A DNA stretch of 37,984 nt from Candidatus Omnitrophota bacterium (GTDB lineage Bacteria; Omnitrophota; Gorgyraeia; 2-02-FULL-51-18). Position numbers and translations under genes: made by a program. Of this stretch, positions 1 through 19,435 are shown one piece after another. How positions within the stretch are numbered: position 1 is the stretch's first letter; the number at the start of each line of letters is the position of its first letter. The stretch lies in the NCBI GenBank assembly GCA_945877765.1, contig CAMDWQ010000013.1:1-37984 (forward strand). Reading direction: 5' to 3'. Below the pieces are notes generated by a model. That model had not been told where the DNA came from and made no database searches. It was given only the letters and a program-made list of their open reading frames with translations.

Positions 1-3000
1 AAGATACAGATGACCACCAAGGAATTTAACTTCTTCCAAGCCAATGAACCTGACTTTGCAACCGTCGCGTATCTTGCCTTCATCAACCGAAAACTCGCTG
101 ACCTCGGCTTTTTCCAGGACCTTATCAGCTACAAAGATATCTTAGAAAAAGGAAAAGAAGCCCTAATTAACTTCTATGACTCAGTAGATAAAAGAGACAA
201 CGCCTTTATCCAAAACACCCAAAGAATCCTAGAAGAAGAAAAGCAAAAAGTAGCCGTCCTCATCACCGGAGGCTATCACACACCGCATCTTAAGAAACTA
301 GTCGAAGACAAAGGCTATTCCTGGGCGGTCCTGACTCCTATTGTTACGTCCGAAACCAACCAGAAAAAATACGAAAAACTTCTCTTAGAACCCCTTCAAA
401 AAGAAACAAAGCGTGTTGAAGTGATTCACGGCGAAGACAGAAAGAAGATGGCGAGCTCCCTCGAAGCGGATCTTATCCTTGCCAAAAAACATGAGGGGGC
501 GAGGATGGCGGCGCTGACCTCAAGATTTGCCGCATACAATCAATTTGCAGAGATTTCCACTAAACCTGATCTCGGTGCACGATTGGCCGGAGTCGTTAGG
601 GGAAATGAAGATGAACTACGCTTGGCGCTTACGGTTGAAGGCGCGCGACTTGCGAATGACAAGAGCGGTACGCCGGAGAATTTAAACCCTTCTCCAGGAG
701 TCTTGGTTGAGCGTCCATTCTCGCCTCCAGGATGGGTGGCTAAGGGGGAAACACTTACGATTCGTGTGGCGGATGGAGAAACCGTGAATATCTTGAAGCC
801 TGGAGAGAAAAATGCCGGACGTGGACTTGGTGAAGTAGAACTTAGCAGTCGAATCGAGCTTCAAATTATGCAGCGTGGCGGGGTGATAGATGTTGATCAC
901 TACGTGATACCGGGTCAAGCGACGGTCTCGGAGCACCGCCTGACTCTCGACCGTCCTTATGTGGGAAAAGATTTTTTCATCGCATTGGACAGCACCGGTA
1001 ATGTGAATATTACTGCCTTGAGTGACCAGCATGTTGTCCAACGAGAGCAAGATGGGAGCGATGTAGCAGGGGTTTCAAAAACAAAAGCCTACGACCCCAT
1101 CGCCATGCCTAAAAAATTGACGGTTGGTACCTATGAAATCTCGGTCGGCAAGGGAGAAGAGGGTATCACCGTAAACGGGAATAGTCTCTCTGAATCAGAT
1201 CCGTGGAGATATTTCAATGTTGGGCGCGAAGCAATAGGAAACGACGTTGAACTTATGGAGTCCGACGAGCCGGGCCGTCGTGGGGTTGGCGCAGTTTCGC
1301 GCCAGTTCTTATATTTAAAGCCCGGTGAAAATGGACAGTGGTGGATGTATTTTAAGCCAAGCGCAATTCAAGGTAGGAAACCTCTCATGATCGGAGAAAC
1401 CACTATTCCTATGGGTCGCTGGATCCCGCTTCAAGTCAATATTGATGCAAGAGATGCTAACAGCGTGAGAAGGCTGGTAGACGAGCCGCGCAAAGATATT
1501 CCGGACGCAATTTATTTGTCTGGTTCCAACCACTCGGCTGATGGGGATGGGGATTGGGTTTACCAGAATCTGGGCGCCGTTGAAATAGTTAGGGCTAACT
1601 TAAGGGTTGGAAACGTCTCATTTCAAATCCAGAAAACAGGAAACAGAATCAGCTTTAGAAATGAAAATGGTGAGCCCCTTGAGTTTGTAGAACAGCCTGA
1701 GGGGCGCAAAGGTTTTCCCTCCAGAAAATTTTTCGAGGTTGCTCCGGGTGAGTCTCTGGTCATCGGTCGAGGAGGCGCATTGGATAATTCTTACGTTTCC
1801 ACACGGCACTTTAAAATCACCGTAGAAAACCAGGGACCTGACAAGTGGAGTTATTTTATCCAGAACTTGAGCGGAAATGGCACGTTCCTGGGAGACAATA
1901 AATTGGCGAGTAAGATGCCGCTCGATTTCGAAGTGGTGTCGGGGGGGGCGAGGCTGGCCGATGGGTCTCTCCAGCGTCATTTTGGAAATCAATCGCTTGA
2001 TAAATATAATAGGTGGATGAGGCGAGAGACAGTAGCACCAACCTCCATACCCGTCGTAGATCAGAAAGTGATTGGTGCTCAGCCAGCGTCCATCACTGCG
2101 CCGTTAGCGCATACATTAGCTCCTTCTCTGCCGGCATTGACGATAGCGGGTTCTTCCGCAGGGAATGCTGCCAGAACTAAAATAGAACCCAAGAGACATG
2201 AGACAGTTTTTGGCTTTCCGTCACGGGAATCTCCTTTGACGAATGCGGATCCTGTGCGAAAGAAGAATTTTTGGGTGTCTTGGAGCGGGGTGAGCGTGGT
2301 AATGAGCGTGGTAGTGGCTACGGTGCTTTTACTGACAGGCCCAGGAACCCGCTTATTTGAACCCATCGTCTTATTTTTTAATCGATCTAATTCTACCACT
2401 TCTAGCCCTGTGGAGATAACCACGCCCAATGCTCAATCCGCTCAGATGGAGCTTTTAGCAGAGTCAGAAAAGTCCGCACGTTCCTTGGACGAACCCGTCC
2501 AAAAAAAATTACACGACCAAGAGCTGGATGACCTAATCAAGCAGTTGGATGATCCCGACCCGGCTAAAATAATTAGAGTTATCGAAGAGTTAAGCGATCG
2601 AGGTATAGAGGCAAAGCCTGCAATACCCAAATTAATAAAGTTGCTTGATGACCCGCGCGAAGGAGAATATGCTGACATTGTAGGCGTCGAAGCGGCTAGA
2701 GCGATTGTGAAGATCCAGGGTAAACCAAAAATATCGAAAGATAATATCCCATTAACTGTTCGTCTTGCTGGTGTGCTGTTCGATCCATTCTGGACAGATG
2801 CACATTACCCAAAAGATCCGATTCCTTATAGTGAAGGGCTCCGCCAGTTTGAGGCCCTCGGAGAACCTGCCGTCCGTGAATTGCTTCAAGTTCTCAAAAA
2901 CCACCCTATTGCAGAATTTCGGGAAAATGCGGCTCGTTTACTTGGACTTGAGGGCTTTGGAGAATATCCTGGGGTGATAAGAGCCTTGCTCCTCGCTCGT

Positions 3001-6000
3001 GTCTACGACGAGGATCGTGTGGGAAAAGCGGCCGAAAAAGCAATCGTTTCGCTAGGAGGCCCCAACTCAGAGAACCCCAAAAAAAATATTCTTAACGCAA
3101 TTCCCGAGCCAACGCCGGAAAATGGCAAGGACCTTCTGTTATTTTTATCTGTCGTAGATTCTTTGCCAACTCAATACCGCAGTGATAATGAACATGCAAT
3201 TTATGAGTTAAAAAGAAGGCTCGATTCACTGGGAATTAAAAACCTAGAGGAAGACATTAAATCCATTTTGTTGGACCCCCGTCTACGCCGCTTAAATCGC
3301 GGGCGTGAATTTCGTAACCAAGTCGCCAAATTTTTCGAAAACTCAATACCTTTTAAGGAATGGGCTGCTAATCAAACCCGCAAAGATGTTGCGGCCTCCA
3401 GGTGGGAGGATGCTCTCAGTAGTGGCGATCTAGGAGATCTCAATTCTGATTTTGCTAAATGGATTGGAGGAGCTTCTGACGCGCAACGTATCGTTGATAT
3501 TCTAGAACAAGGCAATCCCACAGCAGGGCCTCAGACCGATTTTTCTCGCGCCATCCCGACAGAGCAGTATGTGGATCTTCTTGTGAAAATGTTTAGATAC
3601 CAACCCTATATTCCATATGGCATGGAACCTCAAGATTGGAAGGTAATACCAAATTTAATTGTTAAATATGCCCCGAAGTGGGACGGAGAACCCAAGACCT
3701 ATGAAACTGCGCTGGAGGTATTAAGAAGAATACCTGGCCGGGGGGCCATTAGGAAACGATTGAGGCTCCTAGAATCGATGAATCTATCCGGCGAGACTGA
3801 TGAGATGAAAGGTGTCGTTGCTAAGGAATTTAGGGAGCTAGTTAGAGGGGGATCCGACGAAGCGATTAATGCGGTGGTTTCGGCGGCCCAAAAATCAAAT
3901 TTTCGCAATGAAGCTACCCGCGCTTTAGTGGGAGCAGACAATTCTATTACCGCGGTTGAGGCACTAATAGAGGTGCTTGAGTCACCCGCAGCATCGGCGG
4001 AGTTGAAATCTGTAGCCTACTGGTCTCTGAGGCAAACTGAGCTACATGAAATTCGTGTAGGATCTGACATTATTCAGCGTCAAAAAAAAGCGATCGAAAA
4101 ATTTGAGAAAAGTCGTGGCCCGGGCGCTCGACTTTCTAGTGCTTCTGATGGGGGGGGGATGGCGGATCAAAGTAAAGATAATCTCTATAAATTCATCCCG
4201 GGACCTGTTGAACAGGATCGCTTGACGCCTGCTCAAGAGGCTCGTTTGTTGCGTCAAAAATTCCAAGAAAATCTATCCCGGAGTAGTTTTATCCCTTATG
4301 ACGATGGGGTGAGATTTACACCACGTTATACGGAAAATACATACTACGGTTTAATTGGACGTGCGCTGATTGCATTTTTTAACCCATTAGACAACGATTT
4401 TATTCAGCGCGAACTGGATGTTTTATATGCCTTATCGAATCAGGATATTAACGTTGTTGGCCAGCGGATGAGACGTATCGTAGTCAATGCGGCTGCTATA
4501 CGTCATAAAGGTGTTTGGATTGAGACACCACCTTATTTTAATGGCGTCGCAGGGGTTATCAAAGGAGTGTCTGATAGGATCGCCTCCAACTTGGAGTATC
4601 TGAAAGGGCTGGATGAATTGACGACCTCAGGCCTTGAAGCGACAGCGCTTTTTTTTGAAAAGCTCAAATTAGAAGTGGGTGAAGGATTACTGAGAAATCA
4701 GCGCAAAATAGTTTGGGATAAATTAGGCTTCCAGGCATACGAGCTTTTCAGAAAAGACAATAATTTTAACGTCGTTTTTACTCCAGAACAAGCGGAAGCT
4801 CCGGCATGGGCATCTCTTGTTCCAGAATGGATTCTGAATATAACCGGATTGCGACGAGTCACGCAGGAACAAAAAATAGAAATTGTGCCTGTTGAAAACG
4901 GGGCCAACGCGCCAGGGCTAAAGACTGTAATCGATGGGGCGAGTCATGACCAAGGCGCCCGGCTAGCGTCAGCGGACCCAGTTTTAGCCAAGCCGATCGT
5001 TGTGGGTAGCAAAGAATGGAATTCATTTAAAATAGACCTTATAGCGTTGATGACAAAGCATAGATTTCCAATCAATGATTCTATTAATGTTTATTTGGCG
5101 GAAGGTGATCTTATTGCTGTCAAAAAAAATGTTTTAAGTTGGAGGCTCAAGGAGAGCAAATGGAATCGTTTGCTTCGAGGTTTACTCAGACAGCCAAGTC
5201 CTCAGGACCAAGTCCTCAGATTTCTCGACCAATACGAAACACCTAAGCACATTCAAACTATCAATGCTGAATTAGAAGGATTGAGGTTTGCAGGTGACAG
5301 AATATATGAAGAGTCTGCAATAGCAAAGGCTGCTTTAAACATCGTAGAGCACCTCAGTCTTTCACAATCGTACAAAAATGTTCTCCTGGAGTGGATGTAT
5401 TCTAGAATGAGGAATTTTTACCCTGATACTCACCAAGCAATTGCAAACTATATTGCTGACAATGGGGGACCAAAGATTATCCATTTTTATGGCAAGCGCG
5501 GCACTGAATGGAACACATTTAAAAAGAAGCTTACCAATTTGCTGATTATATATCATCCCAGCTCATTAGATCCTACGGTGCTCGATGATTTTCTTAAGTA
5601 TGATCTGGAGGTTGGTGACATGGAAGAAATTGCAGTCAAAATTTCGAATTCAACATTTGTTGAATCTTGGATTAAAAAATATTTTCGAAAATTACGTGGA
5701 CGGGAGAGTCTAGAGGATACAATTTTTAAAATGCTTACGGAATATAGAACGCCTGAGGACGTGAGTGAAACAAAGTGGGAAATGGTTTCATTGAAAAATA
5801 TCGATGGCCAGGCAGAAGACCGGCAACGCGTAGAAAGATATGTTCAAAAAGTGCAAGGGCACGAGACATGGCCACCTAAATATAAAAACATTATGCTTAT
5901 GCAGCTTAACCAGATGACGGATTATCTTTACCGCGACATAAATCACGATATCCAAGATCTTGTCCGCCTTAATACAACGCTCGCGGAGGCCAGCGCCGCG

Positions 6001-9000
6001 CCGATAGGCGTTCTAATGCACGCTGCGCGGTTGGCAACGGATTTGGGAAATCAATATTCTAGTGCTTTATCCTCGGCGAGACAGCAGGTGACACCGACTG
6101 CCGCTGGGGCGAGAATGGCTGACGAAAGCCCGTCACCTTATGCAATTGGATCTTCAGCAGATAAAGCCACAGCCGTGCAAGCCCCGGCCGCGGGCGAATT
6201 TGTGGCGGCGTTGACATCTATTATTATTGCAGACGTTGCATGGCTCTTAATCACACTCCATTATGCTGTAGATCCCACAGCTTTTTTCTTTAATCACTTC
6301 CCAGAGTTGGAGAATTGGCCTCTTTTTAGAGAATATAGTTGGCTGTCAGGCGTGGTGTTAGGCGTGGTGATTTTAATTACAATGGCCCTGGATGTCTACC
6401 TAATTATAAAAATTATATCTGAATATATTAGGGGAGTTGCTATTAAAGCGGAGAGTAATCCAAGTTCAGGGGCTGCGGCTGAACTCGGATCTCATTCGAA
6501 TGTCGCTGCGCGGTTGGCAACGGATTTGGTAAATAAAAATTCTATCGCTTTACCCTCGGCGAGCCAGCAGGTGACAGAGACTGCCGCGGCGGCGAGGATG
6601 GCCAACGAAGCGTGGTCGCCTTATCAAGTTGAAGATCACGATCATGAAATCTACCCGGCTGTGGATAGATTTAAGACGTTGATGATATCTATTATTTTTT
6701 CTACTATTGTGTACGGCATTGGCATGTTTTCATTCATGTACTTAGTTGATCAACGCCATGTAGATTTTTTATTTGATAGATTCCCCGAGTTGCAGAATTT
6801 GCCGCTTTCCAATCGTGACGTTCAGCTTTACAGCTATGTTCCCTTAGTAGTCGCATTGACTGTTGTCGCCTACCCATTGGTGTTTTGGAGGCAGACTATT
6901 AAAATTATAAATTTTGAAAATCATAAAGGATTAAAGAGCGAGGTTGAAAGAAAGTTTAATTTTCTGACCGGTGGTATATTTAAAAATATGGACGTCGACA
7001 AATGGAAACTTTTTTATGCATTCTATCTTCACGTTCCTAGCAAGAACAAAAAAAATATAAAGTTTTTAAATAAAATTAATTTTTATTTAGACTTAATACA
7101 TGACGATGATAAACAGGCCATAGATGTGCAGCGTTTTAGCCGGGCATGGAAAAGCTTTCTTGTGCTCGAATCAAATTTCTCGAACTCCGATTCATTAAAA
7201 TTAAGGGATTTAATCGGCGTATTTCTCGTAGCGAGTTTTAAAAAAGCTTCCGAAAATGAGAAAGATTTTAACGCTAGCTTTGGGTCGGCGCTTGGTGCAC
7301 TTGAGATATTTCTTAGCAAATTCAATCAAGCACACGCGAGTTTTCTCAGTATAAATATACAGCAGGCTATGACTGCGTACGAATTTTACGATTCCAAGAA
7401 ATTCGCCAAAATCGGCGCCCAAGCAGCAGCCTTGTTTAAGAAAAATGAAGATTTTGACGTGACCGTGGTTTTGCCCACGCAAGCTAATCCGGCTGGAAAA
7501 ATTGAAATCACCCGCTCGGTATTTGCCGCGCGGTTGGCGACCGCTACCAAACCCGCAAAGCAAAGAGTGCTATATAAGGAAAATAGAAGCGTCTCAGAAC
7601 AATTCAACTTCCTGCAAGCATTCGGAAGCTTTTCCGGACCAATCTGGATACAAGCGGGGAAGTATGTTTATCGCGTGGAAGCTTATCCTCTACAGCAGAA
7701 GTTTAGTTTTCAACGGTTTCAACCTGCGGCAAAAGGAGTTGAGCCGTCTGTTCCCGCCGGCGAGCTCTACAAAAGAAATTTTGGCAAAGACTACATCGTA
7801 GGCAGGGAACGCTCGGGCTACAGCTTCCTGGACGATGAATTGCTTGAGACAAATCATTTTAGTATTCGTATCGATATCGAGAATTGGGAAACTTCTTTTA
7901 GAATCAAGGATTTAGAATCCACCAACGGCACAACAATTACTTGGACAGAACCGATAGACTTGCGGGATAAGGTGAAATCTCTGGGAATCAATGTGGCTCT
8001 GAGCGATCTTATGCCAGGCTCAACCAGTGATGGGTTTAATGAGATGCCTTTAGAATATCAGAACAAGGTTATTGCCGGGATGTCTCAAGCTGATCCCGCT
8101 TATGATTTTAATACATTTCTGGTGGATAGAAATCTTACTGCCGCCGTTATGGGGGTAATGGATTTAAAAAATTCGGGCCGCCCGACAGTCTATTATCCCG
8201 GAATCGAAAACAGCCTTGGGCGCGACGGTAATTATGGCGCGGCCGTATTGCGGAGCTTAATTCAAACAGATTTTGGGATTTTGGTGGCGACGGCTGCTCA
8301 AAGGGTGTCGATTGAAGAGTTTCAAAACGATTTGACCGCGAAACTAGGGGGTCTCGGCGAAAACTTGCAAATAAGAAAGGGCCCACGAAGCTCTTATATC
8401 GCCACCTTTAGATTCAACAATGTAGACCGCCAAGTAGTCCTTTACTTCAATTCCGATCCCGGCCGCGTGATCCCACAGGAGATCAAAAATGGCTACAATG
8501 TACTGATCAATCGCGGAATGGGTTTTCAGGCTAACAGCTGGGTTGGGCGGATGAAGGATCGAGTTCGTAGGCTTATGAAAAAGCCTCTTCTATTAGAGGA
8601 GGTGATCCAGCTTCTGAAGAGTGACACAGGCTTTATTATCACCGAAGGGCAAGATCTTGCATTTGAGCAACCTGACTTGGAACCTGGCCTTGTGGGGATG
8701 CCCTCTCTAGAGGCTTTGGAACGGACGCCTTCTCTGAGACGTGATTTTAAGTATATTTTGAGCTTAAGTTATCTTTCATTGAATTGGGCGGCACGCCCAA
8801 ACAACCAAACAAGCGCTCTAAATAGAAATTTACCGGTGCTGATGGCCAGGAAACAAATCTCAGAGCAGGCGGTCGATCTTGCCAGGTCAAGAAGCATCGA
8901 CGAACAAAGAAATCATTTTTATAATGGTGTCAAAGGAAAGGTTCCGAGGTTTATTGGGCACCATGCTTTCAATCGTCGTGGGCTCGGTCGAGCTATGTCG

Positions 9001-12000
9001 ATATTGTCCAAAGAGACGCTGAGAGTGGCTGACCCAAGCGAGACGCTTAGACCCGGTAAGAGAGAGAGAGAGGCTTTCTCAAGCATTGATAACGGCGTTG
9101 CTTTTCAAAATCCGCAAGATTTTAGAGGAAACGGAAATTTTATTGCGCCGATAGGAACCCGAAGCTTTGATGATGTTGTTGCCATCATTTTTGCCAGACA
9201 ATACGTGCGCTTTTTTCGTCGCCAATTTCCTAAGCACGCCCAAAAGATTATGTCTTACGAAGAAGCTGTGCTTTATCTCACCGCGTGGACACCGGACATC
9301 GATGAAACAACTCCCATGAATCCGACCACGATCCAAATAATCCATAAAACTGGAGATAAATTAAGGGATCAGATGGATAAGCCTGTGGACGAAAGGGTTG
9401 TCTTGGGTCTTTTATATGACTCAATAGTTATGTTAGGGGAGCCCGTAAGTGTTGACGATAGGGAAAGTATTCTGGGCGCAGACGGCGTTAACCAGGCAAG
9501 GATGGTTTTTAATAGGCTCAGACCGTTCCTTTTGCAATTAAGCGAATTTAAAAATTCAAGACTTCGTCAGAAACTATTCCAAATAATGGCGAGTTATATG
9601 GCAGCTGCAGGTCTTCGATCAATCTCTGGGTTTGACGCGACAACCTTGAATCAAAAAAATAATGTCGATATTGTTGCCGCTCTCGAGGAATTGCTCAAAA
9701 ATAGAAGAATTAGCATGATGGAGTCTTTGGATGATTACTTTGGTATCGATGGCTCAGAGAAGCTTTTCGCTACTGACGCTGTCCGAGTGACGCAAAAGAT
9801 GTTGGCGGCGTATGCATTAAAGATACAATTAGTTCAGAATCAAATTGATAGTAGTGATGACCCGAACGCTTATTCTGTGAGATTAGAGGGAAGTCAACTT
9901 GTGATTATCACCGAAAATAAAAAAGAGTTTAGACCGCTGAACGTAATTGATGTTGAATACGATTGGAGCCGGGGTCACGCAACCCCGCCCTATGTTGTTT
10001 TAACGCATTTGGAGAATGGTATTCGAACGAGACATATTATTTTTAGAAATGGGGAGTCGAAATTAATTTTAGAAGATTCAAATTTAGGGGCAAAGGCCTT
10101 AGATGCATTTATCAATGCCGTTAAAACCACAGCTATCAATGGATTTAATTCACCGGATGGAACAATTCAGCTCTATGCTCCCAATGTAAGGACTGGCCGA
10201 GGGTCGGTTTTTGAATTTTTTACCGCAGGAGATCAAAATTATTATTTGTTAGCCGATGATGCGGAAGGTCGAGGTCATTTACAAACAGAAAATAATGAAG
10301 TAACTTTAACTTTTACTTCAAAAGCAGGAACCTCTATATCGCTTACGGCTCAACTTGGTGCTCGGCTTGCGGAACTTCCTGCCCGCCGAGAAGCTGTTGT
10401 TATCAGCGAGGAGGACGGATTTGTCACGGTTACTTATAATGGGCCAGGTCTAGTAAGTAAGCAAGGACAAGAAGGAAATTCGGAACGATTTAAGCTGGAA
10501 CCTGGCGCGTTTCGTAATGCGGAAATACATTTTTTTGAGGAGGCTGTTTACTATGGGGGAGCCGGACAGATGAGAACCAGAACGTTTCTGCTCTATAGAA
10601 CCAAGAGTGAAAAGCTTATCTATTCCGAATACAACCCATACGAGCTTACTCTAGGTCGATGGTATGCCCCCGGAGCTAAAGAGGCTATCGATCTAAGGAC
10701 TGACAGGCAACTTAAGATGGAGATCGTGCGCATAGTCGTTAGGTGGCGAAGAAAAAAAGTAGACAATCTCTCGAAAAGTCTAGAGGGATCATTGGAGGGT
10801 TTCATACCGGCGGATACTATTAAAAAGTTACCCGATCTTGATCTAGAGGATCTTCTGGCCATCCAGAATAAAATCGAGCTTTTTAGGCAGGATCACCGCC
10901 ATTTTTTTAAACTTTTTGATGAAGGGGCCAAAGCAAGCATTGTAACTACGATTGTCTCCTACGAAAAAAGTGTCCAGGCGGCTATCGATGGATGGTGGAA
11001 ATTTAAAACAGCGCTTGAGCGGGTTTCAACGGAAGATTTACAAGAAATTTCTAGGGTTTTCTTAGAGAATAACCTGCGGCCGGGTCTTACCTTGGCTGAC
11101 ATGATGAGAGGTGGCAGAATCGATAATAATCCTATTCAATTGGCAAGACTGTTGGCGGCAGTGATTAAAGCAATTAAAGAGCTGTCTGCAGATGAAACTA
11201 AAATCGCTGATAAAATTAAAAGCGCTATCGAGGCAAATCCATCGGTAAAGAAACTGCAAGAAGAGTGGATTGATCCCTGGAGCCAAACGGTTGGCGAATC
11301 CCCTGTTTCACAACTTCTAAGCACAGCCTTGATCGTCGCGGGGCTTAGCGCGCAATCGTTGGCCGACATCCAAGCCACGGCGAATCGAGTCAAAGAAGGA
11401 GATGTGGTGACTGATTTAGACGGGCGCCGATTGCGCGTTGTAAAGGTGGAGTCGGGTAAGGTGACCTTTCATCCCACAAAAGGAATTAGCCGGTCTCGAA
11501 CGATATGGCAGGCTGCGCGCAAGCTATTCCGAAGAGAGTCTCCGATTCCGACGCAGACGGAGGCGCGCGGCAGTTTTAAAAAGGGAATACGGCCCCAGTT
11601 TGAATTGAAACCCGGACAGACCTCCACGGCAGCCCGCCTCGCGGGAAATCAAAATTCTACTGTCTCACCCACGACGTCTGTAACCCTCGCTGCGCGGTTG
11701 GCGGGAAAACCAGTTTTTGCTGCCAGACTCGCAGAGACAAGAGTGCTCTATAAGAAAAGAAACAACCCAAACAAATACGTTTCCCTTTATGCGGTCGGTA
11801 GTTTTTCAGGGCCGATATGGATAGGGGCGGGGGACTACGTTTATCGCGTGGAAGCTTATCCCGAAAAGAAGCAGTTTAGTTTTCAACGGTTTCGATCTGC
11901 GGCAAAAGGAGTTGAGTCGTCTTTATCCGTCGGTATTTCTCACACAAAAAAATTTGGCATAGACCACATCGTAGGCAAGGAAGGCTCGAGCTACAGCTTC

Positions 12001-14883
12001 GGCGATCAATTGCTTTCGAAAAATCATTTTAGCATTCGTATCGATAGCGAGGGTTCGAGTACTTTTTTTTCAATCCGTGATTTAGAATCCCTCAACGGCA
12101 CAACCGTTACTTGGACAGAATCGATAGGCTTGGGGGATATGGTGCAATCTCTGAGAGACGATATGGTCAAACGTGAGATGGTCAGTGTATGGACAAGGAT
12201 CAGAGGGCTCGCTAAGACTGAGGCTGATGAATTAAATCCGTATGCTCAAAGAATGTATGGGGATGGAATGTCCAGTGATGGGTACGATGTTAAGTTTAAT
12301 GAAATCTCTAATTTTATTGATCAAATAGATCGATTACTTATTCTAGCCAAAAAAAAGATGGCCCGTAATAGTGCATTTTCTACACTTTTGGTGGATTTGC
12401 TGAAATCAGTGGATTCCCCTTCCCGCAAGGGTGACTATGGCGAGGATAAAAATATTGCTTTTAACAACGCTAATGACTGGGCGCGCGCAGCATTCCTTAG
12501 CAATCCTCAACGGGCGGAGGTTTTGTGGCGGGGGTTGATCGCAAGAGAATTTAGAATTCAGTTGGCTAGTGCCGGTCCAGCTTCCACATATAGGCAAAAT
12601 TATAGTTTTGAAAATTGGGTATTAAACACGTTTAATATTCCTAATTATCTATTGAATCCGAGGCTAGAAGTAACAAAGGTTTGGGAACTAGTCGACTCGA
12701 TTCATCCTGATAACATAGCAGAATCTATGATAGACGTGATCAAGACAATCCTTACGTCACTGAAGGAACTTATTGCGGCTAAGGCGACCAGAGATGAGAA
12801 TATTTTGAGTCTGCAACGTTACTTAAGTACATTGCCAGATGAGACGTTTCACGAAATATATAAAACTTTCAGATTCTCGATGTTTGAGAGCGCAGAGTTG
12901 CGGTTAAAGGCTCTGAAGGCAATACGCAGTTATTTGCTGGGCGCAGGAGTTGCTCAGTTAGAAGAGGGGGACTTAACGGGGAGTCTCGATCTAGAAACTG
13001 TTTTTAGAAATTTTGAACAGGATGATTATTCCAATCCTCATTTCGATGAGCTGCAACCAGGAATTCAACAGGTCTCTTCATTAATGGATATTTTGGATAC
13101 GAATAGAGGCTCACTGAATTCGGCGTTTATAAAAGGGCGTATCGAACAATTTTCGAAACGAGAAAAAAACCAGTCGAACAAGCTTCTCCGAGATTTTCTG
13201 TTTAATCTTCAAGAAGATCTAGGAATCATCCGCGATACCGCGGAGCTGCCTCGAGGAAGTTTTACGGTGGGAGAAAAGGGACGCTTGGTGTGGACTAAGA
13301 GCGCACTCCAGGATGATCGTCAAAAAAAGCTTCCGAACTCGATTGAATGGATTTCTATGTCGTCTAAGTACTCCACGGGTTTCTACGAAGTCGAATCCGA
13401 ACCAGTCGTACATATTTGGTTAAAGCTAACTCGCGATTTCACTCCAGAAGAAATTCAAAAAGAATTTGATAGTCTGATTGCAGACGGTCGAGTGACCGCG
13501 AGCCGCCTAAGGCTTCTAAATCAAGAGGAAGTGCTGATTTTTATTCGTGTCATAGAACGAGAGATACTCATGTTTGGTGATGACTTGTCTGATTCAGTTA
13601 TATTAAGCGATAATATGATTTTACCAGGAAAAAAGGCCTTGGGGGAATATCTGACCGACATTAAGATCTTCTACAACGAAGAAACGGGTCTACCTCGAGG
13701 CGCGCGGCTTGCGGGAAATAAAAGTTCACTCGCTTCACCCGCGGTGTCAACCATGACGCCAGCGGCCCAGCAGGTGATAGCGACAACTGTGGCGCCCGCG
13801 CAGCCAACTATTTATTCCACATCTACAGCAGCTGAATACAGCATTCTTAAAACGTTGTATACTGGCAATTTTCCTGATGTCGTTGTGCAAAGCGGGCAGA
13901 TATCTCGACTCCAACTGTCTGAGAAACAAAAATTGCATATCCTGGCCGCCTATCTTTTGACTAGCAAGAAAGAGCTGTCTATTCCCATGCAAGTTGTTGT
14001 TGATGGTGGCATTGTGGAAATCACACAGGTGTTAAGAGTCCAAGAGAAAGTCCAAGGCGGCGCCAGTCTTATTTTATCCGCTAAAGATGAGTCCGGTGAG
14101 TTGGATGAAGTGGAATTTGCTCTGACGGCAGAAGAGCTTGCCGACGCGCGAACCTTGCTCAAGGAAATGCAGAACCGTGGATCTCGCACCGAAACGTTGA
14201 AAGAAACGGTTGGTTCGGCTGTGTCCCTTACGGGTACATTTGGTGAGTACATGCGGCTTATCCGTCTTTCTCAAGCCGCTTGGGCCGCAAACCCCCGGAT
14301 AGCGCGAAAAGAAATTACTCTCGTGATTCCATTTTCTAAAGAGATGAGCCCTGATGAAAGAAAAGCTATCCAGAGCTTTTTTGACGCTCTTGGCGGGGTC
14401 TTTTACAATAAGATCAGTCTTCGTATTATGGAGTCGGCCGACGAAGCTCTGACTCAAGAGGGCGTGCTTGCGTTTATTGGACACGTGGACGAACCGATGC
14501 TCAATCAAGCCAAGGGAAGCGCCCTACTGCCTATCCCTTACACCCAGACCACTAATGGAGAAATGAAGCTGGCTGATTATATCCGGGCATTTTTACTGGC
14601 TGACTTTTTGGCGGGTTTATCCGAGCAAGAAATGCAAAATCTCCTTCAAAACGACAAATTTATTCAGCTTTTATCCAACGCGATGGCTGACGGCGGTCTG
14701 TGGTTAAATGAAAAAAATACTGATCACAAAACGACCGCTATCCAAGCCTTGTCTAAAGCCAGCCTCGAATATCTCAATCTCTATTTACAGCAACTTCTCA
14801 TCCGTCACCTGTCGGGCCTCTCGATATCCCAGGCGATTGAATTGGCGGCCATGATCACCCAAGCCGTGGGCGCAGCGGCTTAA
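1..14883 (+). CDS. Giant multidomain protein (3' part of gene; FHA, HEAT-like, membrane segments, ARLA motifs)
   Basis: The frame is open from the first base (K-I-Q precede the first Met at 10) with no room to see a ribosome site, so the gene probably begins outside the window; at least 4,957 residues are encoded. Residues are numbered from the Met at 10. Visible in order: an N-terminal segment with VLITGGYHTPHL (about 84-95); degenerate FHA-like folds at about 265-480; a clear FHA domain at about 580-640 (GR, S-x-x-H, NGT); a hydrophobic stretch at about 753-790; HEAT-like helical repeats at about 835-1330; a tandem helical repeat (nt 5011-5975); two linker-plus-two-helix membrane modules (nt 6022-6900); and two copies of an FHA-containing module (nt 7525-7960 and 11719-12160). 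The C-terminal 400 residues have no domain I recognise. Sixteen [GA]AR[LM][AS] motifs are scattered through it, several followed by S/T/P/A-rich linkers. Surface or envelope location is plausible but no signal peptide is visible. Function unknown. Confidence 0.9.
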   Translation, partial: KIQMTTKEFNFFQANEPDFATVAYLAFINRKLADLGFFQDLISYKDILEKGKEALINFYDSVDKRDNAFIQNTQRILEEEKQKVAVLITGGYHTPHLKKLVEDKGYSWAVLTPIVTSETNQKKYEKLLLEPLQKETKRVEVIHGEDRKKMASSLEADLILAKKHEGARMAALTSRFAAYNQFAEISTKPDLGARLAGVVRGNEDELRLALTVEGARLANDKSGTPENLNPSPGVLVERPFSPPGWVAKGETLTIRVADGETVNILKPGEKNAGRGLGEVELSSRIELQIMQRGGVIDVDHYVIPGQATVSEHRLTLDRPYVGKDFFIALDSTGNVNITALSDQHVVQREQDGSDVAGVSKTKAYDPIAMPKKLTVGTYEISVGKGEEGITVNGNSLSESDPWRYFNVGREAIGNDVELMESDEPGRRGVGAVSRQFLYLKPGENGQWWMYFKPSAIQGRKPLMIGETTIPMGRWIPLQVNIDARDANSVRRLVDEPRKDIPDAIYLSGSNHSADGDGDWVYQNLGAVEIVRANLRVGNVSFQIQKTGNRISFRNENGEPLEFVEQPEGRKGFPSRKFFEVAPGESLVIGRGGALDNSYVSTRHFKITVENQGPDKWSYFIQNLSGNGTFLGDNKLASKMPLDFEVVSGGARLADGSLQRHFGNQSLDKYNRWMRRETVAPTSIPVVDQKVIGAQPASITAPLAHTLAPSLPALTIAGSSAGNAARTKIEPKRHETVFGFPSRESPLTNADPVRKKNFWVSWSGVSVVMSVVVATVLLLTGPGTRLFEPIVLFFNRSNSTTSSPVEITTPNAQSAQMELLAESEKSARSLDEPVQKKLHDQELDDLIKQLDDPDPAKIIRVIEELSDRGIEAKPAIPKLIKLLDDPREGEYADIVGVEAARAIVKIQGKPKISKDNIPLTVRLAGVLFDPFWTDAHYPKDPIPYSEGLRQFEALGEPAVRELLQVLKNHPIAEFRENAARLLGLEGFGEYPGVIRALLLARVYDEDRVGKAAEKAIVSLGGPNSENPKKNILNAIPEPTPENGKDLLLFLSVVDSLPTQYRSDNEHAIYELKRRLDSLGIKNLEEDIKSILLDPRLRRLNRGREFRNQVAKFFENSIPFKEWAANQTRKDVAASRWEDALSSGDLGDLNSDFAKWIGGASDAQRIVDILEQGNPTAGPQTDFSRAIPTEQYVDLLVKMFRYQPYIPYGMEPQDWKVIPNLIVKYAPKWDGEPKTYETALEVLRRIPGRGAIRKRLRLLESMNLSGETDEMKGVVAKEFRELVRGGSDEAINAVVSAAQKSNFRNEATRALVGADNSITAVEALIEVLESPAASAELKSVAYWSLRQTELHEIRVGSDIIQRQKKAIEKFEKSRGPGARLSSASDGGGMADQSKDNLYKFIPGPVEQDRLTPAQEARLLRQKFQENLSRSSFIPYDDGVRFTPRYTENTYYGLIGRALIAFFNPLDNDFIQRELDVLYALSNQDINVVGQRMRRIVVNAAAIRHKGVWIETPPYFNGVAGVIKGVSDRIASNLEYLKGLDELTTSGLEATALFFEKLKLEVGEGLLRNQRKIVWDKLGFQAYELFRKDNNFNVVFTPEQAEAPAWASLVPEWILNITGLRRVTQEQKIEIVPVENGANAPGLKTVIDGASHDQGARLASADPVLAKPIVVGSKEWNSFKIDLIALMTKHRFPINDSINVYLAEGDLIAVKKNVLSWRLKESKWNRLLRGLLRQPSPQDQVLRFLDQYETPKHIQTINAELEGLRFAGDRIYEESAIAKAALNIVEHLSLSQSYKNVLLEWMYSRMRNFYPDTHQAIANYIADNGGPKIIHFYGKRGTEWNTFKKKLTNLLIIYHPSSLDPTVLDDFLKYDLEVGDMEEIAVKISNSTFVESWIKKYFRKLRGRESLEDTIFKMLTEYRTPEDVSETKWEMVSLKNIDGQAEDRQRVERYVQKVQGHETWPPKYKNIMLMQLNQMTDYLYRDINHDIQDLVRLNTTLAEASAAPIGVLMHAARLATDLGNQYSSALSSARQQVTPTAAGARMADESPSPYAIGSSADKATAVQAPAAGEFVAALTSIIIADVAWLLITLHYAVDPTAFFFNHFPELENWPLFREYSWLSGVVLGVVILITMALDVYLIIKIISEYIRGVAIKAESNPSSGAAAELGSHSNVAARLATDLVNKNSIALPSASQQVTETAAAARMANEAWSPYQVEDHDHEIYPAVDRFKTLMISIIFSTIVYGIGMFSFMYLVDQRHVDFLFDRFPELQNLPLSNRDVQLYSYVPLVVALTVVAYPLVFWRQTIKIINFENHKGLKSEVERKFNFLTGGIFKNMDVDKWKLFYAFYLHVPSKNKKNIKFLNKINFYLDLIHDDDKQAIDVQRFSRAWKSFLVLESNFSNSDSLKLRDLIGVFLVASFKKASENEKDFNASFGSALGALEIFLSKFNQAHASFLSINIQQAMTAYEFYDSKKFAKIGAQAAALFKKNEDFDVTVVLPTQANPAGKIEITRSVFAARLATATKPAKQRVLYKENRSVSEQFNFLQAFGSFSGPIWIQAGKYVYRVEAYPLQQKFSFQRFQPAAKGVEPSVPAGELYKRNFGKDYIVGRERSGYSFLDDELLETNHFSIRIDIENWETSFRIKDLESTNGTTITWTEPIDLRDKVKSLGINVALSDLMPGSTSDGFNEMPLEYQNKVIAGMSQADPAYDFNTFLVDRNLTAAVMGVMDLKNSGRPTVYYPGIENSLGRDGNYGAAVLRSLIQTDFGILVATAAQRVSIEEFQNDLTAKLGGLGENLQIRKGPRSSYIATFRFNNVDRQVVLYFNSDPGRVIPQEIKNGYNVLINRGMGFQANSWVGRMKDRVRRLMKKPLLLEEVIQLLKSDTGFIITEGQDLAFEQPDLEPGLVGMPSLEALERTPSLRRDFKYILSLSYLSLNWAARPNNQTSALNRNLPVLMARKQISEQAVDLARSRSIDEQRNHFYNGVKGKVPRFIGHHAFNRRGLGRAMSILSKETLRVADPSETLRPGKREREAFSSIDNGVAFQNPQDFRGNGNFIAPIGTRSFDDVVAIIFARQYVRFFRRQFPKHAQKIMSYEEAVLYLTAWTPDIDETTPMNPTTIQIIHKTGDKLRDQMDKPVDERVVLGLLYDSIVMLGEPVSVDDRESILGADGVNQARMVFNRLRPFLLQLSEFKNSRLRQKLFQIMASYMAAAGLRSISGFDATTLNQKNNVDIVAALEELLKNRRISMMESLDDYFGIDGSEKLFATDAVRVTQKMLAAYALKIQLVQNQIDSSDDPNAYSVRLEGSQLVIITENKKEFRPLNVIDVEYDWSRGHATPPYVVLTHLENGIRTRHIIFRNGESKLILEDSNLGAKALDAFINAVKTTAINGFNSPDGTIQLYAPNVRTGRGSVFEFFTAGDQNYYLLADDAEGRGHLQTENNEVTLTFTSKAGTSISLTAQLGARLAELPARREAVVISEEDGFVTVTYNGPGLVSKQGQEGNSERFKLEPGAFRNAEIHFFEEAVYYGGAGQMRTRTFLLYRTKSEKLIYSEYNPYELTLGRWYAPGAKEAIDLRTDRQLKMEIVRIVVRWRRKKVDNLSKSLEGSLEGFIPADTIKKLPDLDLEDLLAIQNKIELFRQDHRHFFKLFDEGAKASIVTTIVSYEKSVQAAIDGWWKFKTALERVSTEDLQEISRVFLENNLRPGLTLADMMRGGRIDNNPIQLARLLAAVIKAIKELSADETKIADKIKSAIEANPSVKKLQEEWIDPWSQTVGESPVSQLLSTALIVAGLSAQSLADIQATANRVKEGDVVTDLDGRRLRVVKVESGKVTFHPTKGISRSRTIWQAARKLFRRESPIPTQTEARGSFKKGIRPQFELKPGQTSTAARLAGNQNSTVSPTTSVTLAARLAGKPVFAARLAETRVLYKKRNNPNKYVSLYAVGSFSGPIWIGAGDYVYRVEAYPEKKQFSFQRFRSAAKGVESSLSVGISHTKKFGIDHIVGKEGSSYSFGDQLLSKNHFSIRIDSEGSSTFFSIRDLESLNGTTVTWTESIGLGDMVQSLRDDMVKREMVSVWTRIRGLAKTEADELNPYAQRMYGDGMSSDGYDVKFNEISNFIDQIDRLLILAKKKMARNSAFSTLLVDLLKSVDSPSRKGDYGEDKNIAFNNANDWARAAFLSNPQRAEVLWRGLIAREFRIQLASAGPASTYRQNYSFENWVLNTFNIPNYLLNPRLEVTKVWELVDSIHPDNIAESMIDVIKTILTSLKELIAAKATRDENILSLQRYLSTLPDETFHEIYKTFRFSMFESAELRLKALKAIRSYLLGAGVAQLEEGDLTGSLDLETVFRNFEQDDYSNPHFDELQPGIQQVSSLMDILDTNRGSLNSAFIKGRIEQFSKREKNQSNKLLRDFLFNLQEDLGIIRDTAELPRGSFTVGEKGRLVWTKSALQDDRQKKLPNSIEWISMSSKYSTGFYEVESEPVVHIWLKLTRDFTPEEIQKEFDSLIADGRVTASRLRLLNQEEVLIFIRVIEREILMFGDDLSDSVILSDNMILPGKKALGEYLTDIKIFYNEETGLPRGARLAGNKSSLASPAVSTMTPAAQQVIATTVAPAQPTIYSTSTAAEYSILKTLYTGNFPDVVVQSGQISRLQLSEKQKLHILAAYLLTSKKELSIPMQVVVDGGIVEITQVLRVQEKVQGGASLILSAKDESGELDEVEFALTAEELADARTLLKEMQNRGSRTETLKETVGSAVSLTGTFGEYMRLIRLSQAAWAANPRIARKEITLVIPFSKEMSPDERKAIQSFFDALGGVFYNKISLRIMESADEALTQEGVLAFIGHVDEPMLNQAKGSALLPIPYTQTTNGEMKLADYIRAFLLADFLAGLSEQEMQNLLQNDKFIQLLSNAMADGGLWLNEKNTDHKTTAIQALSKASLEYLNLYLQQLLIRHLSGLSISQAIELAAMITQAVGAAA
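1735..1940 (+). other. FHA domain, copy 1 (clearest)
   Basis: The translation shows the FHA signature in order: V-I-G-R at 1759-1770, S-T-R-H about ten residues later, then N-L-S-G-N-G-T-F at about 1864-1890. FHA domains bind phosphothreonine peptides through the Arg, Ser and Asn of this signature, and all three are present here. Two degenerate FHA-like segments appear to precede it at about 800-1040 and 1210-1440 (GRG..SSR and VGRE..VSRQ patterns), with lower certainty. Confidence 0.75.
5011..5975 (+). repeat. Tandem internal protein repeat (two diverged units of about 155 residues)
   Basis: Unit 1 (5011 to about 5460) and unit 2 (5503 to about 5975) align across their length: KEWNSFK against TEWNTFK, VYLAEGDLIAVK against YDLEVGDMEEIAVK, the QYETPKHIQ region against EYRTPEDVS, and YKNVLLEWMYSRM against YKNIMLMQLNQMT. 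Both look mainly helical. DNA identity is low, so this is an old duplication kept at protein level. It lies between a GARLA (4954) and an AARLA (6022). I do not recognise the fold. Confidence 0.75.
6022..6900 (+). repeat. Duplicated linker plus two-helix membrane module
   Basis: Copy 1 starts at 6022 and copy 2 at 6505. Each begins AARLATDL, continues through an S/A/Q-rich linker (SSARQQVT / SASQQVT) to ARMA, and then carries two hydrophobic stretches: about 6199-6270 and 6340-6420 in copy 1, about 6667-6750 and 6830-6890 in copy 2. The loop between them conserves F-P-E-L-x-N-x-P-L. The start of each copy shares 25 identical bases, so the linker half is more recent or under stronger constraint than the membrane half. 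The arrangement could place flanking domains on the same side of a membrane. Confidence 0.75.
7525..7960 (+). repeat. FHA-containing module, copy A of a duplicated pair
   Basis: Begins with AARLA, then RVLYKENR, the GSFSGPIWI / YVYRVEAYP region, and an FHA signature: V-G-R at 7798-7806, L-E-T-N-H-F-S-I, and D-L-E-S-T-N-G-T-T ending near 7935. The Ser expected four residues before NHF is replaced by Glu-Thr, while the Arg and STNGT are kept. The same module recurs at 11719-12160 with long stretches of near-identical DNA (for example at 7669-7690 against 11839-11860), indicating a fairly recent intragenic duplication. Confidence 0.8.
11719..12160 (+). repeat. FHA-containing module, copy B of a duplicated pair
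   Basis: Same order as copy A: AARLA, RVLYKKRN, GSFSGPIWI, YVYRVEAYP, then the FHA signature. Here the usual GR is GK (11974-11979) and STNGT is SLNGT, while S-K-N-H-F-S-I keeps the Ser that copy A lost. It is preceded by two more AARLA motifs (11629 and 11689) in a Ser/Thr/Pro-rich linker. Phosphopeptide binding may be weakened or changed relative to copy A. Confidence 0.8.
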
Positions 14884-15354: not shown

Positions 15355-16278
15355 ATGCCAAATTGGGGCGACGTTTTAGCAGAACTGCAGGAATTACAGA
15401 AAACTTTCCAGCCAGGAAATCCTCACCCGCTCGATTTAGTCCGCCGAAAATACCTCAAGATGATGTCGGATGCTACCGGACGAAATGTGATCGCCTATTA
15501 TTCAGGTTTTTTGCAGAGACCTGGAGTTCGTACCTGCCAGATCGATGATAATGATAAAAATGCTTTCATGGCAACAATCCATAAATTGGACCGTTCAAAG
15601 GGTCTCGATTTAATATTGCATACGCCGGGCGGAGATCTCGCAGCTACAGAGTCCTTAGTGGACTATATTCGGGCGATGTTCAAGACGGATGTTGTTGCTT
15701 ATATTCCCCAGATCGCAATGTCGGCTGGCACGATGATAGCCTGTTCTTGTAAGGAAATTGTAATGGGAGATCATTCCAACCTAGGTCCTATCGATCCTCA
15801 GTTCAATGGAATTCCTGCTCATGGTGTCATTGAGGAATTTAAGAGTGCGATTAAGGCTGTAAAGAAGGACCCTGCTTCATTGCCCCTCTGGCAGACAATT
15901 ATCAGTCGCTATCATCCAACATTTATTGGAGAGTGCCAAAAATCTATTAGGTGGTCTGAGCAGATGGTTACCGATTGGCTTGAAACTGGAATGCTTCACG
16001 GTCAGCCGGGAGCCAGAAAAAAGGCAGCCAAGATTGTAAAGGGACTTTCGGATCATAAAACAACCAAGTCTCACGCCAGACACATGACGATGAGGCAGGT
16101 CGCAGATTTGGGTCTGGTGATTAAGGATTTAAAGCTGTCACCGAATAATTTACAGGATACGGTTCTCACCGTGCACCACGCCTTCATGCACACCTTTGCC
16201 AATTCTGTTGCGGCCAAAATTGTTGAAAACCAAAATGGCGTTGCGGTGATTCTCAATAGCAAAGTCACTGGTAATTAA
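15355..16278 (+). CDS. ClpP-fold serine protease, SDH_sah (serine dehydrogenase proteinase) family
   Basis: A 307-residue protein with the ClpP/crotonase-type protease core: LDLILHTPGGDLAATESLVDY (about 84-104) contains the oxyanion-hole GG, and PQIAMSAGTMIA (118-129) carries the probable nucleophile Ser123; GDHSNLGPIDPQ follows at 138-149. These match the SDH_sah family, relatives of ClpP and SppA found in archaea and bacteria. No signal peptide or transmembrane helix is apparent, so it is probably cytoplasmic or peripheral. It is the last gene of a tightly packed three-gene unit directly behind the giant gene. Its substrate is unknown. The C-terminal third (about 200-307) is basic and lies outside the core I recognise. 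Confidence 0.85.
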   Translation: MPNWGDVLAELQELQKTFQPGNPHPLDLVRRKYLKMMSDATGRNVIAYYSGFLQRPGVRTCQIDDNDKNAFMATIHKLDRSKGLDLILHTPGGDLAATESLVDYIRAMFKTDVVAYIPQIAMSAGTMIACSCKEIVMGDHSNLGPIDPQFNGIPAHGVIEEFKSAIKAVKKDPASLPLWQTIISRYHPTFIGECQKSIRWSEQMVTDWLETGMLHGQPGARKKAAKIVKGLSDHKTTKSHARHMTMRQVADLGLVIKDLKLSPNNLQDTVLTVHHAFMHTFANSVAAKIVENQNGVAVILNSKVTGN

Positions 16279-16541: not shown

Positions 16542-17294
16542 TTGTCTAAAGAATTGATCCAAGGTTTACTCGAAGCAGGTTCCCATTTCGGCCACCAGAC
16601 CAGAAAATGGAATCCCAAAATGAAGCCGTTTATTTTTGGCGAAAAAAATGGTATTTACATCATCGATCTTGAAAAGACAGCCGATCATCTGGTGAAGGCT
16701 TGCAATTTTATGCGTAGCATCGCTTCCCAAGGACTTCCGATTCTTTATGTGGGCACCAAGCCGCAGGCTCAGCTGGTCATTGAAGAAGAGGCCAAGCGTG
16801 CCGGGATGTTTTATGTCAATGCCCGCTGGCTCGGGGGTGCGCTGACCAATTATCAGACGATTCGTAACAGCATCCGCCGCTACAAAGAATTGATTGTGAT
16901 GAGGACGGACGGGACTTTTGAGGCGCTGACGAAGAAAGAAGTCTCAGAGCTCGAAAAGGAAATCACTAAGCACGAGAAGAATCTAATCGGTATCGCGGAA
17001 ATGGGACGTCTTCCAGGTGCGATGTTTGTCATTGATGCGAAAAAAGAAGATATCGCGGTCAAAGAAGCCAATCGCTTGGGCATTCCCGTCGTGGCCATCG
17101 TGGACACGGATTCTGATCCCGATAGAATTCAATACCCGATTCCTGCCAATGACGATGCGATTCGTTCGCTACGACTGATTACACGTGTTATCACCGACAG
17201 CATCATTGAAGGCGCACAGAAGGTAAGACGCGCACAAGTGGATGCTAAGGATGACGCTAGTGTTGAAGCTGCGATGTCCGAAGCTTCCAGATAA
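16542..17294 (+). CDS. rpsB: 30S ribosomal protein S2
   Basis: A 250-residue protein of normal length for S2. It opens [20 protein letters not shown], followed by [10 protein letters not shown] and IIDLEKT, and later shows the [13 protein letters not shown] and [12 protein letters not shown] blocks that define bacterial S2. The start codon is TTG, supported by AAAGGAGA seven bases upstream and by the S2 N-terminus; no ATG is suitably placed. It is first in an rpsB-tsf-pyrH-frr operon, a very common bacterial order, driven by the promoter at 16370-16397. The rare start codon and leader hairpin suggest controlled initiation. Confidence 0.98.
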
Positions 17295-17323
17295 AATTTA
17301 GCCGTATCTTTTAAGGAGAATTT

Positions 17324-19435
<2,112 letters not shown>

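Follow-up and report, generated by a model that had tools for sequence, protein, structure and literature searches.

The window analysed here is a stretch of 37,984 nucleotides (positions 1-37984 of contig CAMDWQ010000013.1, or C13) from a 1.65 Mb Omnitrophota genome that is 97.9% complete. It opens with a single very long reading frame in which the pentapeptide [GA]AR[LM][AS] recurs, and the question is what so short a peptide does at so many places of one protein. Below, G000 is the genome of the window, G189, G247, G286, G287, G290, G291, G292, G293 and G294 are other genomes, and L numbers designate giant ORFs. The relatives compared are draft MAGs.

A pentapeptide repeated in giant proteins

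The original prediction had counted sixteen in-frame copies of the motif between positions 496 and 13713, and had presented them as a feature of one giant protein. All 16 copies were found (Table 1), compared to 0.07 expected upon shuffling of the same protein. The contig start has removed the 5′ end of this ORF, and the N-terminal ∼400 aa are missing. The motif is enriched in this protein, but it is not special to it, as it was found genome-wide in giants. In 15 giant ORFs of this genome (44,797 aa), 107 copies were scored for 0.70 expected, with a maximum of 4 among the shuffles; these giants were drawn from the surroundings of motif clusters or of N-terminal-domain matches, and such densities are therefore not genome averages. 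Over the whole genome, the DNA pattern for [GA]ARLA gave 169 matches, against 30 for the reversed pattern, and the matches cluster in further giant ORFs of 1,700 to 5,500 aa. A single protein can hold as many as 30 copies. In the order as a whole, ORFs reach 12,701 aa; they belong to the very long Omnitrophota ORFs with few annotated domains.

Table 1. Features of the giant ORF, with positions in the window.
Feature	Position	Strand	Remarks
Giant ORF, 4,960 aa in window	1..14883	+	one stop-free frame, +1
C-terminal end of shared N-terminal domain	1..420	+	LITGGYHTP, residues 86-94; remainder beyond contig end
Motif GARMA	496..510	+	76 aa past GGYH; N-terminal-domain border
Motif GARLA	574..588	+	
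Motif GARLA	640..654	+	
FHA domain	1777..1911	+	residues 593-637; Pfam
Motif GARLA	1945..1959	+	11 aa downstream of FHA match
HEAT_2 match	2527..2715	+	residues 843-905; Pfam
Motif GARLS	4123..4137	+	
Motif GARLA	4954..4968	+	
Motif AARLA	6022..6036	+	opens duplicated linker copy 1
Motif GARMA	6106..6120	+	closes linker copy 1; precedes module with two TM-like segments (residues 2066-2130)
Motif AARLA	6505..6519	+	opens duplicated linker copy 2
Motif AARMA	6589..6603	+	closes linker copy 2; precedes second module with two TM-like segments (residues 2227-2294)
Motif AARLA	7525..7539	+	immediately upstream of FHA-containing module copy A
Second FHA-like stretch	7801..7935	+	approximate position; Pfam, three FHA stretches of which the best one alone is located
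Motif GARLA	10357..10371	+	
Motif AARLA	11629..11643	+	
Motif AARLA	11689..11703	+	
Motif AARLA	11719..11733	+	immediately upstream of FHA-containing module copy B (paralogue of copy A)
Third FHA-like stretch	11968..12105	+	approximate position; Pfam
Motif GARLA	13699..13713	+	final copy, ahead of C-terminal domain
Conserved C-terminal domain of giants	13798..14880	+	ends VGAAA

The amino-acid sequence is tightly constrained. Only G and A are used at position 1, xARLA with any other x staying at chance level (2 for 1.8 expected). Arg is never replaced by Lys, no copy of [GA]AKLA being present in the 15 giants, where M in place of L and S in place of A are both rare. When over-represented 5-mers were listed without bias, GARLA and AARLA came at the top. 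In ∼284 kb scanned, copies were in the giants' own frames, and two stray matches only were seen elsewhere.

A motif produced by the composition of linkers rich in Ala, Arg and Leu has to be considered, as linkers upstream of the motif are somewhat Ala-rich. Composition was also the control named beforehand as a possible refutation. The yield of copies was far above the shuffled expectation, and outside the order, giants built in the same way do not exceed chance: 23 such ORFs, sharing the N-terminal domain, hold 1 copy in 42,949 aa for 0.7 expected. Composition is rejected on these two grounds, its probability being negligible. The motif characterises the lineage and is far too frequent for chance. 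Literature searches found no description of a punctuating motif.

Architecture shared by the giants

At the start of the giants, a segment resembling a signal peptide was recognised by eye (basic n-region, hydrophobic core, AxA-like end). Next comes an N-terminal domain of ∼450 aa, whose model has a pLDDT of 89. As in the ChaN/Tiki superfamily (PF04187), it has conserved DAH, Glu and GGxH residues, invariant among the giants; unlike that superfamily, it carries a large helical insertion, and it has no confident fold match in the PDB. With E values up to 1 allowed, 9 of 37 members matched PF04187, the best at 4e-5. No PDB match was found at E≤0.001 for the model, and only 3b55/2rad, which we take to be EreB-like, came up at E 0.8-1.7 with a low TM score. 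The relationship to ChaN/Tiki would be a weak one.

The N-terminal domain matches ∼35 places in this genome and is present in the 16 genomes of the order searched (16/16). It is also widespread elsewhere in Omnitrophota, including Omnitrophus magneticus, and it cannot alone be what recognises the motif, because it exists in Omnitrophota that do not have the motif. Outside the order it is found as a stand-alone protein as well, of ∼480-590 aa, ending 45-65 aa past GGYH. This is the length that cleavage at the first motif would yield.

The giants also share a conserved, helical C-terminal domain. In the window giant, the final ∼210 aa of this domain are similar to the end of a giant from G291 (E 2e-8). 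Among 60 collected ORFs, a set that includes many cut by contig ends, 34 terminate in -AA or -SA. Where the C-terminus is a natural one, this ending is nearly constant, and it could be a second, terminal signal.

The motif marks the borders of folded modules

Pfam modules detected in the giants include hexokinase, GH77 4-alpha-glucanotransferase, FBPase, TAL, PPDK, M23, beta-CASP nuclease, kinases, methyltransferases, GT2, HD, FHA and others, and several complete folded units lie within one ORF, seen as separate Pfam matches (hexokinase, GH77, FBPase/TAL, HD, methyltransferase). That the motif often sits at module junctions is confirmed by statistics on domain avoidance, edge excess and spacing. 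Pfam domains, which cover little of the giants' length (4,964 residues), contained no motif where 14.5 were expected (P<0.0002). The N-terminal domain likewise gave none over 19,034 residues, for 47.5 expected. Using only the best stretch per family, as reported, 14 of 54 domain edges had a motif at 40 aa or less, compared to 6.25 expected (P=0.002). Of 44 giants, 34 have their first motif 50-150 aa past GG[YF]H, where 11 would be expected (maximum 21). Distances between motifs are in excess at 200-400 aa and in deficit at 40-150 aa. The regular spacing that had been described is thus domain-sized, but not strictly regular, and some copies are only 5-40 aa apart.

A location inside folded cores had been named beforehand as another possible refutation. 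The motif was found outside them, with the null counts above in Pfam and N-terminal domains, and the two copies flanking hexokinase in low-confidence tails of its model. By simple estimates, of the kind that also underlies the TM-like segments of Table 1, motif flanks are more disorder-prone than average, and the 10 residues just upstream are the most so. Close to C-termini, a few AARLA copies resemble part of a helix rather than a linker. BLAST among the giants gave 37 matches outside the N-terminal domain, and 2.6% of motifs fell within the shared segments, compared to 8.3% at random. [GA]AR[LM][AS] is a short linear peptide that marks the borders of folded modules in giants forming a family within one Omnitrophota order.

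A second short linker motif, SQMSRTDT or a similar [LM]xRTD[PT], recurs after the ARLA motifs of L038, around residues 1525-1550, 2091-2110 and 2447-2470.

Lineage pattern and drift of the consensus

The motif was found in most genomes of the order, including related genera and a sister family. A phylum-wide motif was considered and rejected: DNA counts in 285 genomes were generally not above the reversed-pattern control, though this control is a rough one where G+C is high, and outside the order the counts in proteins were at chance.

Within the order, the consensus varies with the genome between GARLA, AARLA and GARMA. G opens 111 of 114 copies in G189 and about half of those in G000, while position 4 is mostly M in G293, G294 and G247. 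The differences between genomes gave p=1e-14 at position 1 and p=1e-27 at position 4, values that are descriptive only, as copies in one genome share ancestry and are not independent. In genus g226, GARLA is gone and G-x-R-x-A is found instead, with 37 copies for 5.6 expected in G286, and 7 for 1.1 in G287. The consensus shifts in concert over many unlinked genes, as a single recognising factor predicts, and we infer that one trans-acting factor outside the cytoplasm reads the motif. Every second residue is invariant (small, x, Arg, x, Ala), a pattern suggestive of binding as an extended strand in a groove.

Peptide or nucleotide signal

The use of different codons had been read as a sign of selection on the peptide. 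In the 15 giants of this genome, 95 distinct 15-mers encode the 107 copies, mean flank identity among copies is 0.267 and 0.271, compared to 0.260 at random, and codons inside one copy are nearly independent of each other, all of which shows selection to act on the peptide. Codon use is diverse, yet it is not neutral. CGG amounts to 49% at the motif, compared to 16% in the background, and TTG to 48% compared to 21%; no such bias is seen in AR or RL pairs elsewhere. The preference is genome-specific (CGG in most of G000, G189, G290 and G291; CGT, GGA and CTG in G189), and pure peptide selection does not account for it.

The suggestion that the motif serves as a joint for modules was borne out, as edges of recently shared segments coincide with it. 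Nine clear cases of recently shared sequence were seen, eight of which end at the motif on one side. The window motif at 496 and its L082 counterpart have 92% identity upstream and 33% downstream. The opposite holds for L043 653 compared to 2806 (25% upstream, 86% downstream), and the pairs L043 653/2806, L038 1525/2447 and G290 6453/6931 are 78-89% shared on the downstream side only. A processing site and a shuffling joint are compatible, because a tag placed at borders makes a safe joint.

One may then ask whether the joint works at the nucleotide level, the coding sequence offering short homology for module shuffling or duplication and the peptide being a by-product. The ends of shared segments at the motif, in both directions, would fit, as would a codon consensus that differs by genome. 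Such a joint is nevertheless improbable, given the number of distinct 15-mers, the scarcely linked codons, the lack of copies in other frames or on the other strand beyond stray matches, and an amino-acid rule that does not tolerate Lys. In addition, the GxRxA of G286 frees positions 2 and 4, so that DNA homology is lost and the alternating residues are kept. A DNA-level repeat or uptake-type sequence as sole cause is excluded by the restriction to the coding frame, the many codons and the unrelated flanks. Even less can be said for a neutral spread of the linker by duplication, where likeness would reflect recent descent only. A few duplicated linkers do exist, but flank identity equal to random already largely refutes it; moreover the motif is kept across genera and in the sister family when flanks are not, and synonymous sites have diversified. 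We consider neutral spread very unlikely.

What the motif could be for

Our main reading is that the motif would be a recognition peptide of module borders, and that it most likely serves the processing of exported polyproteins, with a probability of roughly 45%. A giant begins with its signal-peptide-like segment, followed by the ChaN/Tiki-like domain, the motif-separated modules and the common C-terminal domain. One factor outside the cytoplasm would recognise the motif at the borders, and this factor would most likely be a processing protease cutting at or beside Arg, so that modules would be released from an exported polyprotein. If the motif is cleaved, Arg would be the natural P1 residue, and a cut after the final Ala is possible too. 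Trypsin cuts after Arg, so tryptic peptide ends at the motif would mislead, since trypsin itself cleaves after the invariant Arg. Copies 5-40 aa apart argue against processing, as cutting there would free tiny peptides, and so do the helix-like AARLA copies near C-termini and the genome-specific codon bias.

Searches for the obvious candidate enzymes, Arg-specific or trypsin-like, also speak against it. Neither peptidase C11 nor C14 turned up in the order (16 genomes searched), and this genome and several motif-rich relatives gave no match to Trypsin or Trypsin_2, which are S1 families; for peptidase C25, a search run without a working control gave no match in this genome. S1 trypsin-like/DegP proteases were not found in most of the order, and three are present in G292, whose sampled giant has no motif.

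We favour proteolytic processing over docking without cleavage, in which one adaptor, scaffold, envelope component or translocation chaperone would bind at each module and the giant would stay intact. Docking is rather unlikely, yet it accounts equally well for the border position and the genome-wide shifts of consensus. Closely spaced copies, 5-20 aa from each other (window 11629, 11689 and 11719), would be in keeping with avidity binding, and C11, C14 and S1 proteases were not found in this genome. Furthermore, passages of PMC10066038 treat an Omnitrophota giant as an intact cell coat. On the other side, a motif at nearly every border, even right after the N-terminal domain, exceeds what docking needs, and no candidate adaptor has come up. 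Alternatively, the motif and its preferred codons might slow the ribosome or the Sec channel, so that modules fold in turn. The border position, domain-sized spacing, signal-peptide-like N-termini and biased codons would agree with this. However, the preferred codons are not rare in giants (CGG is 16% of Arg, TTG 21% of Leu codons) and they vary between genomes (CGT in G189), and pausing does not require so strict a peptide, which makes a pause signal quite improbable.

If we return to processing, a wider scenario can be proposed more tentatively. The order would pack dozens of enzymes in exported polyproteins, and one dedicated factor, co-evolving with a G-x-R-x-A-type peptide, would free them once out of the cytoplasm, perhaps at the cell of a host or of a prey.

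Comparison with known systems

Viral polyproteins, prohormones and filaggrin-type precursors are polyproteins with repeated processing sites. As in these, the giants carry complete folded units in one chain, with a short strict motif in flexible linkers. They differ in being bacterial, with dozens per genome and heterogeneous enzyme modules. To our knowledge, no cellular polyprotein system of such a scale has been described in bacteria; if the motif is a processing site, there would be one. With or without cleavage, the concerted drift of a genome-wide seam tag points to one undiscovered recognising factor.

LPXTG and PEP-CTERM signals are found in one copy near the C-terminus, beside a TM segment. 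They are likewise short peptide rules common to many exported proteins of one lineage, but the motif of the giants is internal, with many copies per protein, and this rules out a sorting signal of that type. Of the original proposal of a processing or sorting signal, a selected peptide signal at module borders is supported, and processing stays putative.

Giant ORFs of Omnitrophota, including the 39,678-aa protein of Velamenicoccus, are described in passages of PMC10066038 as having few annotated domains, with attachment or predation proposed as their role. Our giants are similar to them in phylum, length and paucity of annotated domains. The passages of that paper searched contain no mention of a punctuating peptide, of a shared N- or C-terminal domain or of a polyprotein. 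Such ORFs are a recognised puzzle, and the motif gives a rule for dividing them into modules for expression, folding and assay.

Enzymes embedded in the giants

Hexokinase was found only within long ORFs, of 1,939 aa in G000, 2,576 aa in G189 and 1,052 aa on a short contig of G294. In G000 and G189, which belong to two genera, motifs bracket the enzyme on both sides at the same alignment columns; in G294, from the sister family, motifs are near it, at columns that are not identical. The active-site-type motifs GFTFSFP and NDT are retained. In a weak hexokinase model (3 sequences, pLDDT 57), both flanking motifs are in tails below 50 pLDDT. The GH77 of G189 stops exactly at GARMA 4612, and has no close motif on its left side.

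Sugar-metabolism enzymes (hexokinase, FBPase/transaldolase, PPDK and GH77) were seen inside giants L042, L033, L031 and L039, which have signal-peptide-like starts. The presence of ATP-dependent enzymes of cytoplasmic type in putatively exported giants is odd. It suggests that these presumed symbionts or predators may export hexokinase and other such enzymes.

Neighbourhood of the giant gene

A gene for an SDH/ClpP-like, membrane-type serine protease adjoins the giant gene downstream (window 15355-16278, + strand). It was considered as the processing enzyme and set aside, as the matches listed for a phylum sample included none from the other members of the order that were sampled. An ordinary rpsB-tsf-pyrH-frr cluster comes next (16542-19435, + strand), followed by tRNA-Lys, a membrane pyrophosphatase (20603-23080) and several histidine kinase/response regulator genes.
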